Shown piece by piece: positions 3,242-21,160 of a DNA stretch of 21,677 nucleotides; position 1 is the stretch's first letter, and every line of letters begins with the position of its first letter. Origin of the DNA: a virus. The position numbers and the translations under genes are program-made. Location: the IMG/VR virus record IMGVR_UViG_3300020195_000180, positions 1 through 21,677 of that record. One strand, written 5' to 3'. A model generated the notes under the pieces. The model was not told the DNA's origin. It searched no databases and worked only from the letters and a program-made list of their open reading frames with translations.

Positions 3242-3266
3242 AAAAAGGCCGCCCCAAAGAGCGGCC
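3242..3266 (-). terminator. Intrinsic terminator after the major capsid gene
   Basis: Read on the minus strand, the sequence has GGCCGC (3266-3261), an 8-base loop, GCGGCC (3252-3247), and then five T residues (3246-3242). A six-pair GC-only stem followed directly by a T tract is a textbook Rho-independent terminator. It stands between the capsid stop (3291) and the RBS of the next gene. It would reduce expression of the downstream genes relative to capsid unless RNA polymerase is modified. Confidence 0.85.
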
Positions 3267-3290
3267 CGATGAGTTGCGCTATGGGTTCAA

Positions 3291-10890: not shown

Positions 10891-12186
10891 TCAGACCACG
10901 CCGGTTTTAGGATAGTTGATGGTGCGGCCGAACGCCTTGGCCCGCGACGGGTCCTCGTAAGAAATAGCCATCAGGCCGAACGCATCCGAGCAATGCGAGG
11001 ACCAATCGTGGTCCGGCCCCAGCCCGACATTCCGCGCATCGTCCTTGCGTTCGTGGTAGTAGCCCAAAGCATCGCGCCCCGGCTCGGTGGTGGCCTCGTT
11101 AAACCAGCACTTGGCGAAGATGCGGCGCACTGCCTCAACCCGCATGAGCGCAGCGCCGCGGCCCTGGTTCTTGATGACCGTCACGTCAAACCCGGCATCA
11201 CGCAGATGATCTGCGTACCGCTTGCCGGTGATGTTATTATCGTTCACCCCATCGTGGGGCAGGTAGCACAGCGCGGCCTCGTAGCCCTTGCGGCGCAGTT
11301 CGTTGACGTAATAGGCCAGCACCTGGCCAACGCCCTCGATATAGTCGAGGACACGAACCTCCTGCCCGATGAACTGGACAATCCAGATCGCCATGGCGTC
11401 GGCCGTTGCACCGCTGCCGCCAATGTCGAAATAGGCCCGGGTTGGCAATAGCGGATCAGCGCTGACGCGCCCGATGCGGCCTTCCGTTTTGGCCGCGGCC
11501 ATGACAGCCGCAAAGTAGGCGCCTTCGAACGCCCTGGCGTAATCGCCCTCCCAGATATGTTCATACCGATCTGAGTAGAGCGACAGGTCAAGCCGTCGCT
11601 CGTCTTCGAGCACGGACGGGAACCAGGGATTATCCCGCCAGTTGGCATTGACGACGACGGAGCCGGTCGGCTTTTTCTGCCGCAAGAATTCGTCAACCGC
11701 GTCCGACTTGCGACGCGGATTCCATGATGCCCATAACTCGGAGTTGTCCGCCCGGATCGTGGGCCGCAACAGCGACAGGCTGCGATGACTAAGCGTCTGG
11801 GCTTCCTCGATCCACGCGACCCTGAAACCTTCGAGCGACTTGATTGATTCCGCCGTGTGATCCTGCATGCCCTGGAAGATCAGGATGCCGTCGCCAGGGG
11901 TTTTGATCTTGTCCTCGTAGACCTTGAACTCTCGGCCGACGCCGAGGTCGTTTATCTTCGTCTCGACCAAGCGCTTGCTCGATTGCGCTAGGGTCTTCTG
12001 CACCTCGCGGATGCACACGCCGAGCATGCCGCGCTCTTGCAGGCACCTTTCGACCAGCATCTCACCGAAAAAATGGCTTTTGCCTGAGCCGCGTCCGCCA
12101 TGCGCTCCCTTGTATCGCGCAGGCTCAAGAAGCGGGCGGAATACCCTAGCCGTTTGGATTTGCAGGGTCGACAATGATCCGCTCAA
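10891..12186 (-). CDS. terL: Terminase large subunit (PBSX family)
   Basis: The ATPase and nuclease that drives and cuts DNA during packaging, 431 residues. Walker A is GGRGSGKS at residues 30-37, Walker B is VAWIEE at 123-128 with the catalytic Glu pair, and the motor motif SWNPRRKSDAVDEF follows around 156. The nuclease domain begins with YFDIGGSGATADA near 240 and its last acidic motif is HDWSSHCSDAF at about 393-403. The start is TTG at 12186 with GGAA upstream, overlapping the terS-like gene by 41 bases. Codons 381-403 exist a second time as an exact DNA copy at 13015-13084. Confidence 0.93.
   Translation of the reverse strand: MSGSLSTLQIQTARVFRPLLEPARYKGAHGGRGSGKSHFFGEMLVERCLQERGMLGVCIREVQKTLAQSSKRLVETKINDLGVGREFKVYEDKIKTPGDGILIFQGMQDHTAESIKSLEGFRVAWIEEAQTLSHRSLSLLRPTIRADNSELWASWNPRRKSDAVDEFLRQKKPTGSVVVNANWRDNPWFPSVLEDERRLDLSLYSDRYEHIWEGDYARAFEGAYFAAVMAAAKTEGRIGRVSADPLLPTRAYFDIGGSGATADAMAIWIVQFIGQEVRVLDYIEGVGQVLAYYVNELRRKGYEAALCYLPHDGVNDNNITGKRYADHLRDAGFDVTVIKNQGRGAALMRVEAVRRIFAKCWFNEATTEPGRDALGYYHERKDDARNVGLGPDHDWSSHCSDAFGLMAISYEDPSRAKAFGRTINYPKTGVV
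10978..11047. repeat. 70-base direct repeat, copy inside terL
   Basis: This stretch is identical, without a mismatch, to 13015-13084 (offset 2037 bases, same orientation). In terL it encodes residues 381-403, which hold the last nuclease motif. The flanks on both sides of the two copies differ at once. The unit contains two dyads: CGCAT/ATGCG (10981-10997) and GGACCA/TGGTCC around ATCG (10999-11014). Confidence 0.95.
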
Positions 12187-12442
12187 TTCGTTCCAGCCTG
12201 ATCGGATCGGCCTCGTTGTCGCCCCCGATAGGTTGTGTCACCTTGCCGTCGAGGCGATCACCAACCTCTTTGGCCGCCGCGGTTTCATCGCCGGCACGAT
12301 TGAGAAGCTGGCGCGCAATCCAGCGCAGCGAGCCCTTGTATGCAGGGGTATCTTCGCCTTCGTCGGCCAGGACTGCCTCCATGCGGAGCGCGTCTCGATA
12401 GGGCTTGTCCTTGTTCAGCGAGCCCGCTGGTCGGCCGGCCAT
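12146..12442 (-). CDS. Terminase small-subunit-like protein (DUF5681-like)
   Basis: A 98-residue protein that begins MAGRPAGSLNKDKPYRDALR and contains LRWIARQLLNRAGDETAAAK, then EVGDRLDGKVTQPIGG and a C-terminal IRLERIERIIVDP. The basic Gly-Arg-Pro start and the helical DRLDGK section are typical of small proteins encoded just upstream of terminase large subunits, and the family is often annotated as terminase small subunit. It would recognise the packaging site on phage DNA. AGGGA lies 7 bases before the ATG. It overlaps terL by 41 bases. The assignment as TerS rests mainly on position and the N-terminal motif. Confidence 0.7.
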   Translation of the reverse strand: MAGRPAGSLNKDKPYRDALRMEAVLADEGEDTPAYKGSLRWIARQLLNRAGDETAAAKEVGDRLDGKVTQPIGGDNEADPIRLERIERIIVDPANPNG

Positions 12443-12469: not shown

Positions 12470-12700
12470 TTATGCGTTGCTGGGGCTGGTGTGGCCGTAG
12501 CGGGGAGGCTGGTCGGCCGACGGGCGAGCGCCGGAACTTGAGCCGGTAGTCAACGTATAGGTCGGGGCCGCCAGGGTGCCCTCCATAACGAACTTGTAAA
12601 GTCCCCGCGCAATGGCCAGATGGCCACCCTCGTTTCCCCCCGTGGGAAAACAGCCCGTTGCCAACCGCAGGCACTCCAAACGGATTTCTTGATCCGACAT
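12470..12700 (-). CDS. Small phage protein, first gene of the late operon
   Basis: A 76-residue product. The N-terminal half is a helix-rich domain: MSDQEIRLECLRLATG, then GGHLAIARGLYKFVMEGT. The C-terminal half is a disordered Ser/Thr/Gly/Pro-rich tail. Similar small proteins start packaging operons in other alphaproteobacterial phages, without known function. GGAAAGG is 6 bases before the ATG, a strong RBS. A terminator-like hairpin ends only about 18 bases upstream, so expression of this gene and everything after it would depend on read-through of that hairpin. Confidence 0.72.
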   Translation of the reverse strand: MSDQEIRLECLRLATGCFPTGGNEGGHLAIARGLYKFVMEGTLAAPTYTLTTGSSSGARPSADQPPRYGHTSPSNA

Positions 12701-12717: not shown

Positions 12718-12771
12718 AAAATTAAAGCGGGGCCTCCGCCGACCGACAAAGCCGATCCATTCCTGCCCCGC
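12718..12771 (-). terminator. Terminator-like hairpin in the late-operon leader
   Basis: On the minus strand the arms GCGGGGC (12771-12765) and GCCCCGC (12733-12727) pair perfectly over 7 GC pairs. Between them an inner hairpin GATCGGC-TTT-GTCGGTC pairs over 7 positions with two G-U pairs. The outer stem is followed at once by TTTAATTTT (12726-12718). The long composite loop is unusual, but stem plus T tract fits an intrinsic terminator or attenuator ahead of the late genes. Confidence 0.6.
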
Positions 12772-12777
12772 CCATTG

Positions 12778-12864
12778 TCACCTTCCGGTGAGCGGCTGCC
12801 GCAGGGCGCAAGCGCCCCACAACCCTGGGTCCTATAGACCCAGTCGACCGTCAAACGAACGGTC
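12778..12864 (-). ncRNA. Candidate structured leader RNA with five tandem hairpins
   Basis: Read 5' to 3' on the minus strand there are five consecutive hairpins in 87 bases. H1: GACCGT/ACGGTC (12864-12846). H2: CTGGGTC/GACCCAG with loop TATAG (12843-12825). H3: GGGCG-CTTG-CGCCC (12817-12804). H4: GCGG-CAG-CCGC (12802-12792). H5: TCACC-GGAA-GGTGA (12791-12778). All stems are mismatch-free and H3 to H5 are almost contiguous, which allows coaxial stacking. H3 has a CUUG tetraloop closed by G-C and H5 a GNRA (GGAA) tetraloop only when read on the minus strand, which points to RNA of that strand. No known family is recognised. Put-like antitermination RNA or a packaging-site role are the two options considered. 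Confidence 0.55.
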
Positions 12865-12901
12865 TCCCTTCGACCGCGGAAGCCGAAGCCGAATTACGTG
12901 T

Positions 12902-12930
12902 AATGTACCCTTTGCGCCCCGTATCTTCAA
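12902..12930 (-). promoter_or_regulatory. Candidate late promoter
   Basis: On the minus strand TTGAAG (12930-12925) and TACATT (12907-12902) are separated by 17 bases, a reasonable sigma70-type promoter. Transcription would start near 12895, giving a leader of about 195 bases that carries the five hairpins and the terminator-like stem before the first late gene. The -10 box overlaps a dyad (ATTAC/GTAAT, 12893-12904) that could be an operator. Confidence 0.4.
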
Positions 12931-13014: not shown

Positions 13015-13084
13015 GAACGCATCCGAGCAATGCGAGGACCAATCGTGGTCCGGCCCCAGCCCGACATTCCGCGCATCGTCCTTG
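13015..13084. repeat. 70-base direct repeat, copy in the non-coding leader region
   Basis: Exact copy of terL 10978-11047. Here it lies upstream of the candidate late promoter, in no recognised gene. On the minus strand it would still encode the last terminase nuclease motif, inside a 60-codon frame (13134-12952) that starts with GTG and has no RBS. Complete identity means the copy is recent or kept by selection. Confidence 0.95.
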
Positions 13085-13157
13085 AAGGGCTCGGCCGGGC
13101 GCAAAATGTCGGGAAGCAGGGCACGAAACGCCACCCTAGAATTAACGTGTATTTCAA

Positions 13158-13721
13158 CTACCGGGCCCCGTCAACACCTTTTTTCCACAGTTTCCTCGCC
13201 CTCACCAGCACCCTTGCCAGCACGTTCAGCCCCAGGCGCAAATTGCCGAAATCATCAAATCCCAGCCCTTGAGCCGGAACGTCGTCGATACATACCGCGT
13301 AGCAAATGCGGACTACTCGATCCCCGGACGCCTGTAACTCCATGCGGCAATCGTTCCAGCGCCGGCATACATCGGCAATCACGTCCTGGTCAGGCTCTGG
13401 CGCACAGCTCATGCCGCTGGCCACCAGCACAAAGCCCGGCGACTTCGGGCGCCCGAGCGGATAGCCGACGATCTCCGCATGGCGGCGCACCAGACGAACC
13501 CAAGCCTCGCCAGCGTCGTATTGCTCCTGCGTGATGCCGGACGGGTCTTCCGGGAAGTTCCGGTGCCGGAGGTGCAGTTGGCCTAGCGTGAAGCCAGCCA
13601 GGGGGTCCAGCGCGTGCCTTTCGGACAGCCCGACCTTGGCCAGCTCGCGGACGCGGACCTGCTGCGTCTCCGGGTGCACCCCTTCGGTCTTGTCCAGTTT
13701 AGGCCGTCCAGATCGTGCCAA
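13158..13721 (-). CDS. Conserved phage protein at the end of the early block, possible late regulator
   Basis: I prefer a TTG start at 13721, two bases after the upstream stop, giving 187 residues beginning MARSGRPKLDKTEGVHPETQ. A GTG at 13778 would add 19 residues but has no RBS and overlaps the previous gene by 55 bases. The basic start with Gly-Arg-Pro, then DPLAGFTLGQLHLRH, ITQEQYDAGEAWVRLVRRHA, VIADVCRRWNDCRMEL and a C-terminal helix resembles a family often found between replication and packaging genes of alphaproteobacterial phages. The function is not known. Its position, last before the late leader, is that of antitermination protein Q in lambdoid phages; this is a positional inference only. 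Confidence 0.65.
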   Translation of the reverse strand: MARSGRPKLDKTEGVHPETQQVRVRELAKVGLSERHALDPLAGFTLGQLHLRHRNFPEDPSGITQEQYDAGEAWVRLVRRHAEIVGYPLGRPKSPGFVLVASGMSCAPEPDQDVIADVCRRWNDCRMELQASGDRVVRICYAVCIDDVPAQGLGFDDFGNLRLGLNVLARVLVRARKLWKKGVDGAR

Positions 13722-13723
13722 GG

Positions 13724-13927
13724 TTAGCCCGCTCGCGCTAGATTCCGACGCTGAACGCTCTCGATTATCTTCTGCCACAGTCTATAATGGACTTGGCCGT
13801 TGCTTTTCCGTAGCCGCGCCCAGGCATAGATTTCAAGCCGATAGAACCGGCTATGGTCTGCAAAACGACACCTGCGGATGTCACGCAACAATTCCGAATT
13901 AGCTGGCCAAATTTGGTAAAAACACAT
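13724..13927 (-). CDS. Small basic aromatic-rich phage protein, possibly made by frameshift
   Basis: The frame encodes 67 residues from ATG 13927: MCFYQIWPANSELLRDIRR, then SRFYRLEIYAWARLRKSNGQ and VHYRLWQKIIESVQRR. Many Trp, Tyr, Phe and Arg residues and sensible helices suggest a real DNA- or RNA-binding protein. The GC content is lower than in its neighbours. AGGGG precedes the ATG by only 2 bases, a poor arrangement. Directly upstream a 14-codon frame (13977-13933, MTDALLALIPDAKG) starts as ATGA on the previous stop and ends with TAG. A -1 slip on A AAG GGG (13942-13936) would join the two into one 84-residue protein. A true indel is the other explanation. Confidence 0.55.
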   Translation of the reverse strand: MCFYQIWPANSELLRDIRRCRFADHSRFYRLEIYAWARLRKSNGQVHYRLWQKIIESVQRRNLARAG

Positions 13928-15804: not shown

Positions 15805-15995
15805 GCTCCATCCCTCGCTTTCCCCGGCTCGACCGGATCGCCGTCATGCGGCCAGTGCATCAGTCCGCCCCACTCACCGTGCGTAGGCCCTAGATCGGCA
15901 GCCCAGTTCCATCCCGCCTCGTAATAGGATTGGACCTGGCTATGCGGGATATAGCGGTAGAGCCTTGTGCGGAGATGGTCGGGGTCGATGGTCAT
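15801..15995 (-). CDS. Small conserved phage protein
   Basis: A 64-residue product: MTIDPDHLRTRLYRYIPHSQ, then YYEAGWNWAADLGPTHGEWG and LMHWPHDGDP. The LYRYIPHSQVQSYYEAGW and DLGPTHGEW motifs are familiar from a small family in rhizobial prophages, with unknown function. ATGA overlaps on both sides (with the methyltransferase stop at 15992 and the initiator start at 15804) tie it into the operon. No zinc ligands, membrane helix or catalytic motif seen. Confidence 0.75.
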   Translation of the reverse strand: MTIDPDHLRTRLYRYIPHSQVQSYYEAGWNWAADLGPTHGEWGGLMHWPHDGDPVEPGKARDGA

Positions 15996-16894
15996 TCGGC
16001 ATCCACCATGGAGATCTGCGCTTTGGGCAGTAAAAAACCTTGACGATCTTCGGCGTCGAGATAGCGGCAGGATTGTCGCCAGTAGCTTTCCTTAAGTTCG
16101 ATGCCCAAAAACTTGCGACCGAGTTTGAGGGAAACAACGCCCTCGCTGCCAATCCCCATGAATGGGGAAAACACAACGTTGCCGACGTTGCTCCACATGA
16201 TGACGGCGCGCTCGATCACGTCGAGTTGCAAAGGACACAGATGCCGCTCGTCGCCGGTCTCACGCGCAGCTTGCACGTTGAGCACGTTGGATTGATTGAC
16301 GCTCGTCCAAACAGGGGATGCCCATTCCTGCCACTGCTTGAGCGGGAAATCAGATGGCGTGTGACTGATCGGCTCGGCATTATCGCCGGGCTTTATGAAT
16401 GTCAGCAGATAGTCAGGCATACCGCCGCGGGACTTGCTGCTGTCCTTTTGCAATTGTTTGTAGAGCAAACCAACGTGCTTCGTCCTGGTCATCTCAACTA
16501 CCGGGCATTTCCAGATCGTGCGACGTCCGTGCAATATCCAGCCGGCCTCTTCGTGGATACGAATGAGCTGGCCAGAGAAGTCCTTGATGCCGACCGCGCC
16601 CTCGCGCCATTTTGTCATCGGCAGGTCTGAACAATGTACCGCCGTGAGCCGGCCCGGCTTTGTCATCCTGTAAAGCTCGCGGACCAGCCACGAATAATGC
16701 GTAGCAAACTCGCTATCGGTCGAATTGCCCATGTCCGCCGCGCTCTCCGAATAAACGAACAGAGAACCAAACGGAGGCGAATAGACCGAGTGGTCTACGC
16801 AATCGTCCGGCATCTGCATGGCCACGTCCACGCAATCACCGTTGATGGCCTGGTATCTATAACCGCTTGCGGAATTCAGGCAACGCATATCCAT
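15992..16894 (-). CDS. Site-specific DNA methyltransferase (N4/N6 amino, beta class)
   Basis: The 300-residue protein has the two key motifs in beta-class order. The catalytic motif IV is SPPF at residues 39-42, near the N-terminus, and the AdoMet-binding motif I is FMGIGSEG at 245-252, near the C-terminus, followed by FLGIELKESYW. SPPF is more common in N4-cytosine enzymes, DPPY in N6-adenine enzymes, so m4C is the better guess, but m6A is possible. No partner restriction enzyme is visible, so it is an orphan enzyme, likely for protection of phage DNA or for regulation. The start overlaps the helicase gene by 19 bases. A second in-frame ATG is at 16888. Confidence 0.85.
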   Translation of the reverse strand: MDMRCLNSASGYRYQAINGDCVDVAMQMPDDCVDHSVYSPPFGSLFVYSESAADMGNSTDSEFATHYSWLVRELYRMTKPGRLTAVHCSDLPMTKWREGAVGIKDFSGQLIRIHEEAGWILHGRRTIWKCPVVEMTRTKHVGLLYKQLQKDSSKSRGGMPDYLLTFIKPGDNAEPISHTPSDFPLKQWQEWASPVWTSVNQSNVLNVQAARETGDERHLCPLQLDVIERAVIMWSNVGNVVFSPFMGIGSEGVVSLKLGRKFLGIELKESYWRQSCRYLDAEDRQGFLLPKAQISMVDAE

Positions 16895-18261
16895 GGCTCC
16901 AAATGTGCGGTATGTTTCGGGACATACGAGGATTTGACAGTCGCGACCTGACCTATCGCGCGTTTCATGGATGCACGCATGGCCATTTTCATCTCGACAT
17001 GATCACCAGCCTTCCGGTCGATCACGTTGCCAGTGGCAATCTCGCCATCGGCGACGGCAAGGTGAACCTTGAGCGCGCGTTTTTGTCCATAGCGCCAGCA
17101 TCGTCGGATGGCTTGATACCAGGTTTCATAGGAATAGCTGCGACCGACGAATGCCATTCTCGCGCAGTGCGCCCAATCGAGGCCAAAGCACATTGACGGC
17201 TTAACAATCAGGTGCCGTGCCGCCCCGGTCGAAAACGCGAGCAGCTTTTCTTCTTTTTCCTCGATCGACTGCGAACCACGAACCTCGATCGCGGAGGGAA
17301 TGGTTGCTCGAAGCGCATCGGCCTCATAGTTCGTATCGCAATAGATCAGCCACGTCTCGTTAGGTTCGGCAGCAACCGTAGCGCCAACCGCTTCGGCCCG
17401 CGCTGCGCCGGTCTGTCGTTTCACATCGTGAATGTCGGTAGCAGAGAGCGATGGCGAGCCGAACAGGTCATCGCTATTACGGTTGATGATTGTGGATTTA
17501 ACGACATGGCGAATAATCTCAAACGACGGAAGATCGAATCCGATATCATCTCCACCTAGATCGGACGGCCTCTCAGCCATCCTGGTCCAAGACGACATCC
17601 AATCCCAAAACGCGGTCACCGCGTGGCACTTCAATCGCCATTTTTGCGAGGCAGTCGATGTATCGTTGATGAAAAACCGCGACAACATCTCGTTGGCAGC
17701 CATCGAATCGCAGAACTCGGCATAGTTGCCAAATTCCATGTGATCGTTCGGGGCTGGCGTTGCGGAGGCTACCAATTTGAACCGAGCCGATTTATGCGCC
17801 GCGATCAGCATGCGCGTAGTTACTCCGGTGAAGCTCTTGAGGATCGATGCCTCATCGCACGACACAATGCCGAAATAGGGCAGGTCAAGTTTGTCGCGGC
17901 GGTCATAATTGCAGATATTGATGATGCCGGCACGCGCCTCAGATTGGTCGCGAATGATTGCTGCCTCATATCCCCATCGCTCGGCTCGCCGTTTGGTTTG
18001 AGCCGCCACGGCAAGCGGCGTCCAGATTAGGACCGGGAGGTTTGTTGCCTCCATAGCGCGCTGGCAGAACTCTAACTGAATTTCTGTCTTGCCCATCCCA
18101 GTGTCAAGAAAGCATCCCGCAGCCCCGATCCGCAGATGGTGATCGACGCAATTCCGCTGATCGGCTCGCAGATGCACGGCAAGATCAGGCACTCTGGCAA
18201 GGCCTCGATGCTTTGCCTTGACGGCCTTACTCGCTAGAAATTGAGCGTAGCTCTGGCTCAC
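16876..18261 (-). CDS. SNF2-type DEAD/DEAH-box helicase
   Basis: The start is GTG at 18261, overlapping the nuclease stop as GTGA and preceded by GGAGG at a good distance, giving 461 residues. A longer reading back to 18504 would overlap the nuclease gene with meaningless sequence. Motif I is DTGMGKT at residues 53-59, motif II is DEAS at 136-139, and motif III is SATPAPND at 166-173. Motif VI is QAIRRCWRYGQKR near the C-terminus, as in SNF2/SF2 proteins of phages. It would use ATP to translocate on or remodel phage DNA. It is paired with the VRR-NUC gene, a known phage association. Confidence 0.88.
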   Translation of the reverse strand: MSQSYAQFLASKAVKAKHRGLARVPDLAVHLRADQRNCVDHHLRIGAAGCFLDTGMGKTEIQLEFCQRAMEATNLPVLIWTPLAVAAQTKRRAERWGYEAAIIRDQSEARAGIINICNYDRRDKLDLPYFGIVSCDEASILKSFTGVTTRMLIAAHKSARFKLVASATPAPNDHMEFGNYAEFCDSMAANEMLSRFFINDTSTASQKWRLKCHAVTAFWDWMSSWTRMAERPSDLGGDDIGFDLPSFEIIRHVVKSTIINRNSDDLFGSPSLSATDIHDVKRQTGAARAEAVGATVAAEPNETWLIYCDTNYEADALRATIPSAIEVRGSQSIEEKEEKLLAFSTGAARHLIVKPSMCFGLDWAHCARMAFVGRSYSYETWYQAIRRCWRYGQKRALKVHLAVADGEIATGNVIDRKAGDHVEMKMAMRASMKRAIGQVATVKSSYVPKHTAHLEPWICVA

Positions 18262-18710
18262 GCCGCCCTCCCCATCATCTCTACCGCGCGGATCGCGCCC
18301 CACTTGATCAGAATGGCGGTAACATCCTCTGGCGATCGCGCCAGGGCGTACAGCGCCCCGGCATCCAGCGCGTCCAACTCGAATTGCTTCTGCCAGAGGG
18401 ATTGCTTGCCTTTCTTGGTCTTCAATTCGAGAAATCCGGCGCGGCCGTTCATGACGATAAGAAAATCCGCCGCACCGCGTCGGGCTCCCATGGCTATTTG
18501 CCACCGGCCGGCTTTGCGACCGTTTGCGCTCTGGATGCCGAGCGGAATATGCGTGTACAGCACATTGCGCCGGCTGCTTTTCCGCAGCAGGTCCAACGTA
18601 AAGTCGTGCAGATTGCGTTCGGTTAGATCGGTCACGCCATCCGCTCGCTTTCCGAGCTGCGCGGCATATTCGAGCACGTCGTCCTTGCAGGTAAATTCGG
18701 GTTCAAACAT
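18258..18710 (-). CDS. VRR-NUC domain nuclease
   Basis: A 150-residue stand-alone nuclease of the PD-(D/E)XK fold. The catalytic parts are visible: GARRGAADFLIV with Asp82, then FLELK with Glu95 and Lys97, then GKQSLWQKQF with Gln107. The N-terminal 45 residues are a helical addition. Its ATG overlaps the stop of the GcrA-like gene (TAATG) and its stop overlaps the start of the helicase gene (GTGA). VRR-NUC proteins next to SNF2 helicases are a recurrent phage pair, proposed to process branched replication or recombination DNA (family knowledge). Confidence 0.88.
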   Translation of the reverse strand: MFEPEFTCKDDVLEYAAQLGKRADGVTDLTERNLHDFTLDLLRKSSRRNVLYTHIPLGIQSANGRKAGRWQIAMGARRGAADFLIVMNGRAGFLELKTKKGKQSLWQKQFELDALDAGALYALARSPEDVTAILIKWGAIRAVEMMGRAA

Positions 18711-19420
18711 TATCTCGCCATCTCCATCAAGTTGGGTGCCTTGCGAACAGGCGACATCGGCTCGGCAACATAGTTATACGCCACCGCCATATGGCCAGGG
18801 CAATACGCACGGTCCTGCGACAGCTTTGCGGTCGGCGCGCCGCAGAAGAAAAACCCCGGCTCTTTCGGATCACCAACCGGCCAGCGGCAGCTCGTATCGG
18901 TCAATTGCAGAAAGGTCTTTCGCTGCTCGATCGGCATGTCGATGACCGGGCGGAGTTTGAATTGCTGACAATCGAGGCGGGGATCCTTGGCAACATTGCG
19001 GCGATGATCGTTGCGCCGGAAATTGGGGCTATCGACCTTGGACGCCGTTGGTTTCCATTGCGTGCGCTTGGCTTTCCGAGCAGCTTCGGCAGCAGCGTTC
19101 CGCACCCCATGTGCATTAGGTAATGCCAGGCCAATCCTCTGGCACTTGCCTATAATGGCGTTGCGCGAAACGCCGAGCGTGTCGGCAATGTCACGAGCGG
19201 AAAGCCCCTTGTTCTGGACTAGAGCTAGAAGTTGTTCAATGCGGGCTGGTGTCCAAGGCGATCCAGCTGGAATGGCGGCCTCACTCCGTCCACCTATACC
19301 CGTCTCGGCGGGTGTAAGGTGCGAAAGGTCAGCGGCATCCTTTGCGGCATCCTTTGGAGCCACGGGAATAGATGACATCTCGCGATTGGGCAGCCTCGAC
19401 ATAGAGTTTCTCCATGACAT
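18710..19420 (-). CDS. GcrA-like cell-cycle transcription regulator
   Basis: The product shows both GcrA parts. At residues 55-98 is the helix-turn-helix domain (WTPARIEQLLALVQ, LSARDIADTLGVSRNAIIG). At 172-214 is the C-terminal cysteine-rich domain (DTSCRWPVGDP, FFFCGAP, AYCPGHMAVAY) with Cys178, Cys193, Cys207 and His210. In Caulobacter, GcrA binds sigma70 RNA polymerase and acts at GANTC-methylated promoters (family knowledge). A phage copy could redirect host transcription or act on its own promoters. The N-terminus is uncertain: ATG 19420 and ATG 19402 each have a GGAG site because an 18-base unit is duplicated, and ATG 19378 is a third choice. It overlaps the zinc-finger gene by 50-92 bases. 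At 236 residues it is longer than typical GcrA (about 170-175). Confidence 0.85.
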   Translation of the reverse strand: MSWRNSMSRLPNREMSSIPVAPKDAAKDAADLSHLTPAETGIGGRSEAAIPAGSPWTPARIEQLLALVQNKGLSARDIADTLGVSRNAIIGKCQRIGLALPNAHGVRNAAAEAARKAKRTQWKPTASKVDSPNFRRNDHRRNVAKDPRLDCQQFKLRPVIDMPIEQRKTFLQLTDTSCRWPVGDPKEPGFFFCGAPTAKLSQDRAYCPGHMAVAYNYVAEPMSPVRKAPNLMEMAR

Positions 19421-20539: not shown

Positions 20540-21160
20540 ATGCCAATCAGCTTCGCCATCACCAACCGATATACCGGCGCGGTTCAGTTCACCGCAGAGA
20601 TCGAATGCGACGACGCCGCGCCGACCCGAGTGAAGGTTGGCTTGGCGGTGAAGTGGGCCTTCAAGGATCGCGCGTACCTCAGTGGCGCGGACCTCAGTGG
20701 CGCGTACCTCAGTGGCGCGAACCTCAATTGCGCGAACCTCAGTGGCGCGTACCTCAGTGGCGCGGACCTCAGTGGCGCGTACCTCAGTGGCGCGAACCTC
20801 AGTTGCGCGAACCTCAGTTGCGCGAACCTCAGTGGCGCGTACCTCAGTTGCGCGAACCTCAGTGGCGCGTACCTCAGTGGCGCGAACCTCAGTTGCGCGA
20901 ACCTCAGTGGCTATAATCTCGCCAAAGGGCAATCGCTGGCGCTGCTCGGCACGCCCGACGATTGGAACGCCTTCACCTATTTCACCGACCAGGGTGAGCA
21001 GCGCATCCACGTCGGCTGCCGCGACTTCAACCTCGCCGAGGCCCGCGCCCATTGGGCCGGGAAGCCGGCTCGCCGCGAGGTGCTGGCCGCCCTCGACTAC
21101 GCCGAGGCCATCGGCCGTGCGCGGGATTGGGGCAGCGCAGCCGCGCAGGTTGCCGCCTAA
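20540..21160 (+). CDS. Pentapeptide-repeat protein
   Basis: The 206-residue product has an N-terminal domain (1-44, [17 protein letters not shown] and EIECDD). Sixteen tandem pentapeptides follow at 45-124 with the consensus A(N/D/Y)LS(G/C), then a C-terminal domain ([51 protein letters not shown]). The Leu in the middle of each unit is the hallmark of the right-handed quadrilateral beta helix. Some family members mimic DNA and inhibit gyrase (for example Qnr and MfpA); most have no known role, and mimicry is not shown here. GGGAAAG precedes the ATG. It is the first gene of the plus-strand operon and probably early. Confidence 0.85.
20672..20911 (+). repeat. Sixteen tandem 15-base units in the pentapeptide gene
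   Basis: The unit is GCG(A/T/G)ACCTCAGT(G/T)GC with few changes, so codons as well as residues are almost the same in each copy. Variation is concentrated in the second codon (AAC, GAC, TAC) and the last codon (GGC, TGC). Such uniform DNA indicates recent expansion or ongoing unit gain and loss. All reading frames stay open over the array, which creates false frames on both strands. Confidence 0.9.

Follow-up and report, generated by a model that had tools for sequence, protein, structure and literature searches.

A phage gene remotely related to GafZ beside a promoter, hairpin cluster and terminator: a candidate antitermination switch ahead of a late operon

Introduction

GafZ acts at the gene transfer agent (GTA) cluster of Caulobacter crescentus together with GafY and IHF. 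It binds a palindrome between the −35 and −10 boxes of the GTA promoter, is found in association with polymerase and Nus factors, and lets polymerase pass a terminator (PMC11150451). The protein resembles the C-terminal part of GafA (PMC11150451), the direct activator of the Rhodobacter GTA, with which BLAST finds DUF6456 proteins and whose homologs carry the DUF6456 annotation (PMC9638019). A different arrangement is found in phage HK022, where the put RNA acts on early genes without a phage protein (PMC9378689).

Antitermination systems of the kind considered here are already known from lambda Q and GafZ. What is new is evidence that alphaproteobacterial phages carry GafZ-related genes that adjoin a module of promoter and terminator ahead of the late genes. 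In the open literature searched, no description of a phage GafZ-related gene with such a module was found, and DUF6456 was mentioned only in the context of GTAs. If the reading put forward below is correct, it would assign a function to an unknown phage gene family ahead of the packaging genes, explain how late genes are switched on in alphaproteobacterial phages, whose genomes here show no Q protein recognised by sequence, and point to the origin of the GTA regulator GafZ.

Results

The window, meaning the whole stretch of DNA that was analysed, is a 21,677-base uncultured virus record (IMGVR_UViG_3300020195_000180). The host is probably an alphaproteobacterium, judging from the relatives of the terminase, the presence of a GcrA homolog and related prophages in Hyphomicrobiales. 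Most genes are coded on the minus strand, in the order helicase, methylase and replication genes, g206 (13158 to 13778), a non-coding stretch, a 76-amino-acid (aa) gene (12470 to 12700), the terminase small (terS; 12146 to 12442) and large (terL; 10891 to 12186) subunit genes, portal, scaffold and major capsid. The terL product matched the PHROG terminase large subunit (E value, 1.2e−48), while terS is a probable assignment whose homologs immediately precede terL in dozens of loci. The 76-aa gene, the first of the late genes, shares 42 aa of homology with a small gene of other phages; in the phage contigs L082 to L087 its homologs immediately follow a longer gene and have no leader of the window kind. 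Other genes in the window include the phage-borne homolog of GcrA, an alphaproteobacterial cell-cycle regulator (18710 to 19420; Pfam E value, 3.2e−29), an N6/N4 DNA methylase gene (15992 to 16894) and, on the opposite (plus) strand, a pentapeptide-repeat protein gene with tandem DNA repeats (20540 to 21160).

The non-coding stretch between g206 and the 76-aa gene is 457 bases long and holds a promoter, hairpins and a terminator. The terminator ahead of the late operon, reported in an earlier note made from the sequence alone, is present at 12773 to 12718 on the minus strand. Its outer stem pairs GGGCGGGGC (12773 to 12765) with GCCCCGCTT (12733 to 12725), the inner stem pairs GATCGGC with GTCGGTC, and this nested structure (−27 kcal/mol; z, −2.8) runs into the U-tract TTTAATTTT at 12726 to 12718. 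The ribosome-binding site that the same note placed before the first late gene could be recognised as an RBS-like GGAAAGG followed by the ATG at 12700. Only 18 nt separate the terminator from this ATG; because no promoter fits between the two, transcription of the late genes from upstream must cross the terminator. A second intrinsic terminator, cited earlier at 3242 to 3266, is also real and was located at 3267 to 3246 on the minus strand (GGGCCGCTCTTTGGGGCGGCCTTTTTC; stem of 9 bp, tail TTTTT), where it follows the major capsid gene within the late operon. Its presence is expected if polymerase is modified. Intrinsic terminators that act as attenuators after a capsid gene are common, too.

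An iterated profile search from g206 identified 16 homologs in loci related through terL or dnaB, nearly all of them between dnaB and terS. These form two groups: group A, which contains the window (19 to 36% identity), and the better conserved group B, the two aligning at 96.6% in hhalign. An HMM built without the window recovered g206 (E value, 1.2e−21) as the sole match among the 376 window ORFs. A single-sequence scan gave no close relatives, and a three-sequence profile returned only the two contigs already known. Genes of the g206 family are present in 44 of 397 Hyphomicrobiales genomes sampled and precede the packaging genes in many soil phages.

Relationship to DUF6456 was assessed against Pfam and against chromosomal proteins collected from Hyphomicrobiales genomes; in Kaistia the DUF6456 gene comes after a DnaA-like gene, as in the reported GafY-GafZ pair. 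Group B matched Pfam DUF6456 with a best E value of 2e−6, and the three group-B proteins tested scored at or near the cut-off of PF20057. No match to PF20057 was obtained with g206, which by the curated cut-off falls outside that family. A group-A profile with the window's g206 as its first sequence aligned to chromosomal DUF6456/GafZ at 93.8% in hhalign (E value, 1.7e−7; 137 columns), and groups A and B together reached 97.4%, against 0.1% for an unrelated terS control. The closest subgroup of g206 alone (three sequences) gave 1.1%, no match; because the link needs the wider group, the claim made here is one of superfamily and not of Pfam family membership, and at that level these profile comparisons make it very probable that g206 belongs with GafZ.

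An AF2 model of g206 (pLDDT, 84; pTM, 0.74) was compared with known and predicted structures. Foldseek returned phage proteins of unknown function, one of them named DUF6456 (probability, 1.00; E value, 0.03), and fold searches of the PDB gave nothing significant (best Foldseek E value, 0.72). Sigma-4-like chains were frequent among the weak structural matches, with Z scores of 6 or less; this is the range of unrelated helical models. Searches of Pfam with g206 and group A gave no Q-family match, and neither did searches of PHROGs and NCBIfam, in which group B was included as well.

To describe the surroundings of these genes, 80 further loci were fetched with group B. The module at the group-B gene end consists of TTGAC, a spacer often containing GCAAATCA, a −10 box, often GTCGCAAGTGATTTGC, and then a hairpin such as CCCGCCCGGAGAAATCCGTTGGCGGGTTTTT. 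In 39 of 76 group-B loci, TTGAC is found between −40 and +80 relative to the gene end, compared with 35 of 397 control ORF ends (P = 2e−16), and a terminator lies no more than 110 nt downstream of 24 of 34 group-B promoters (random stretches, 110 of 2,000). The group-A copies in bacterial genomes (n = 29) are an independent set that played no part in defining the module. Here TTGAC was found at the gene end in 9 of 29 copies versus 14 of 187 controls (P = 9e−4), a terminator in 8 of 29 (control, 9 of 100), and only 5 of 29 scored 12 or more on a promoter matrix (control, 3 of 100). The module is not shown by all relatives of g206. In Bradyrhizobium phage ppBeUSDA76-2, a group-B gene (16651 to 17184), a terminator and terS/terL follow in order, with a poor −35 box. 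RNAalifold predicted no pairs for the relatives' terminators aligned with MAFFT, an alignment in which the stems were out of register, so that the lack of pairs does not count against covariation. In many group-B leaders (L172, L170, L171, L174, L214, L215 and others), GTGATTTGC was observed shortly after the −10 box. It is the reverse complement of GCAAATCAC, which occurs in the spacer of group-B promoters, and the two are possibly an inverted binding-site pair across the start site.

The promoter matrix was derived from the late promoters of 34 group-B relatives, with the window left out. On the minus strand of the window, the promoter-like pair already pointed out at 12930 to 12902 was found again (−35, TTGAAG, 12930 to 12925; 17-nt spacer, ATACGGGGCGCAAAGGG; −10, TACATT, 12907 to 12902), though it is weak: 8 of 12 positions agree with the sigma-70 consensus, below the cut-off of 9 of 12 used in a generic scan. 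Transcription would be expected to start near 12895. The matrix, which measures partly general promoter likeness because it was seeded with TTGAC, ranked this pair 2nd of 43,264 positions and top on the minus strand; when the 480-nt region was shuffled 1,000 times, its score was reached in 9. An alternative overlaps the end of g206 (−35 box and spacer, 13174 to 13152, minus strand). Here TTGACG at 13174 is positioned exactly as the TTGAC boxes of the relatives (matrix rank, 14 of 43,264; score, 9.4) and is adjoined by a GGGCCC palindrome; the −10 box would be TACACG (13151 to 13146). The relatives' motif GCAAATCA is absent from the window, and no clear palindrome is found in the spacer of the 12930 promoter. 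Since TTGACG sits at the relatives' position, at a lower score, and GCAAATCA is missing, the 12930 promoter is likely but not certain. The presumed binding site of a regulator is not recognisable in the window by analogy with the relatives.

Downstream of this promoter, the leader carries a cluster of hairpins at 12875 to 12778 on the minus strand: H1 (GGTC/GACC, 12875 to 12861), H2 (GACCGT/ACGGTC, 12864 to 12846), H3 (CTGGGTC/GACCCAG, 12843 to 12825), H4 (GGGCG-CTTG-CGCCC, 12817 to 12804), H5 (GCGGC-A-GCCGC, 12802 to 12792) and H6 (TCACC-GGAA-GGTGA, 12791 to 12778). Most of the packed, mismatch-free hairpins described in the earlier note thus lie where it had placed them, and its CUUG and GGAA tetraloops are present on the minus strand in H4 and H6, respectively. 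Not all of the hairpins can form together. The GACC arm is common to H1 and H2, which makes these two mutually exclusive, and H5 cannot form as written because its loop is 1 nt; therefore, about four hairpins can coexist. In the 120-nt fold, a short outer helix encloses the first three hairpins as a multibranch. With pair span limited to 30, the cluster folds at −47.0 kcal/mol compared with −32.7 ± 4.0 kcal/mol for dinucleotide shuffles, none of 1,000 being as stable, and, of 2,158 segments taken from the two strands, it is lowest in local energy as well as in z (−5.6). Unrestricted 120-nt folds are less exceptional, as z falls to −4.9 in coding segments and to −4.6 on the plus strand at the cluster. 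Because these score similarly, the strand cannot be assigned from folding energy alone; the minus strand is set by position, terminator and gene direction.

The leader matched no Rfam family at the gathering score or at a relaxed E value, which agrees with the earlier impression that it resembles no recognised RNA. BLASTN and nhmmer identified no leader homologs in 80 terL-relative loci, 80 dnaB-relative loci or the phage collection, and an exact scan of viral contigs for one leader hairpin gave nothing. The best leader match (L037) lies within a RusA-like coding gene and was rejected as a homolog. Leaders between promoter and terminator in the relatives are usually short and lack a hairpin cluster of the window kind.

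Discussion

The 457-base interval is read here as the late control region of an alphaproteobacterial phage, operating as a processive antitermination switch of the GafZ/Q type, with a probability of roughly 0.55. Because promoter, hairpins and terminator are found together with a GafZ-related gene upstream, the late genes are probably switched on by antitermination, and the odds lean to the same slight extent towards control of the late operon across the terminator at 12726. Under this reading, host sigma-70 polymerase would start at the 12930 to 12902 promoter, or possibly at the end of g206 (13174), make the leader and stop at the 12726 terminator. When g206 protein had accumulated sufficiently, it would act as the antiterminator, loading onto polymerase at or near the promoter and travelling along with it. 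The modified polymerase would then pass the terminators at 12726 and 3246, and this read-through, transcribing the packaging and head genes, would be the late-gene switch. The suggestion of the earlier note that the leader could be the site of a Q-like factor gains indirect support from the GafZ-related gene upstream, the best minus-strand matrix promoter and the recurrence of the layout; the motif and the spacer palindrome that would mark such a site are the part that was not borne out.

In the window, the gene of the candidate regulator comes immediately before the promoter, the terminator and the late operon, an order that recurs in the relatives, and by analogy a GafZ-like gene in that place is the layout that would be expected of a Q-type switch. 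As with lambda Q (pR′, qut and tR′), regulator gene, promoter, a leader of ∼170 nt, terminator and late genes follow in order, although g206 has no Q-family match in Pfam and no pause element or Q-binding site was recognised. GafZ is of the same superfamily as g206 by profile comparison, and it controls, as g206 would, a phage-type packaging and head operon with a terminator near its start. GafZ also has a predicted sigma-like helix-turn-helix; the sigma-4-like matches of g206 are of the weak kind described above. The two systems differ in that g206 is phage borne, directly upstream of its presumed target and with no adjacent GafY-like gene noted, and in that the terminator precedes the first late gene in the window but follows it in the GafZ system. 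The window further lacks a palindrome between the −35 (12930) and −10 boxes and carries the hairpin cluster in its leader. Like HK022 put, it has a phage promoter that is followed by a structured leader RNA, here one with no Rfam match and no leader homolog.

The competing account to which most weight is given, with perhaps one chance in four, is a plain boundary terminator that ends the early transcript through g206, the late genes being served by leaky read-through or a cryptic promoter. Dedicated antitermination would then be absent and the hairpins an ordinary structured 5′ leader. The terminator is real, intrinsic terminators are common between operons, the promoter is weak relative to consensus, and the relatives' motif is missing from the window, all of which suit this account. 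It sits poorly with the 18-nt gap before the ATG, which leaves no space for another promoter, with the gene-promoter-terminator order recurring in relatives, and with the placement of g206 in the GafZ superfamily. The inverted repeats could instead work as DNA, either as a cos/pac packaging site or as a site for protein binding close to terS. Their location just upstream of terS, their symmetry on both strands and the good folding of the plus strand favor such an element, but only the coding strand places a U-tract at the last hairpin, and the succession of promoter, leader, terminator and RBS suits transcription. This is the least probable of the alternatives.

A put-like or attenuator RNA, in which the nascent cluster either modifies polymerase or alternates between folds that do and do not terminate, is improbable, at somewhat better odds than the DNA element. 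In its favor, no local fold in the window is more stable than the cluster, H1 and H2 exclude each other, and the tetraloops are of the kinds noted above. Against these features stand the empty Rfam search, the failure to find a leader homolog in any fetched locus, and relatives whose promoter and terminator usually stand too close together for such a cluster, none being present between them, and the put-like RNA advanced in the earlier note was not supported. For the antitermination switch itself, a specific role for the hairpin cluster is the weakest step: that the cluster plays a particular part in antitermination is doubtful, and its effect may be no more than to stabilise the leader or set its pace. 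It is unique to the window among the loci compared, and the proposed mechanism assigns it no specific part. A mixed protein-and-RNA system, combining a class of GafZ-related late antiterminators throughout alphaproteobacterial phages, of which GafZ/GafA would be the domesticated form, with a leader RNA acquired here that takes part in antitermination, is given about one chance in ten.

Two repeats were observed in the same region. A perfect 70-bp direct repeat (10978 to 11047 and 13015 to 13084) places a copy of the 3′ part of terL between g206 and the late promoter, in the non-coding stretch. No comparable repeat was found among the terL relatives, and the copy may be a recent duplication or an assembly fault. 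A 15-bp inverted repeat (13060 to 13074 and 13099 to 13113) is fully paired as RNA, with two G-U pairs. One arm lies within the copied terL fragment, and the outer arm would pair with terL mRNA too; the repeat is possibly due to chance.

A similar gene order was identified in EBPR podovirus 2 (L252, 3246 to 4300), in which gp13, with TTGACA at the gene end, is followed by an annotated terminator, gp14, terS and terL. Profile comparison of gp13 with the g206 family gave 0.2%, no detectable relation, and it was rejected as a member; it is perhaps another late-regulator family. The Foldseek match F8TUR2 has the same length as gp13 and may be this protein.
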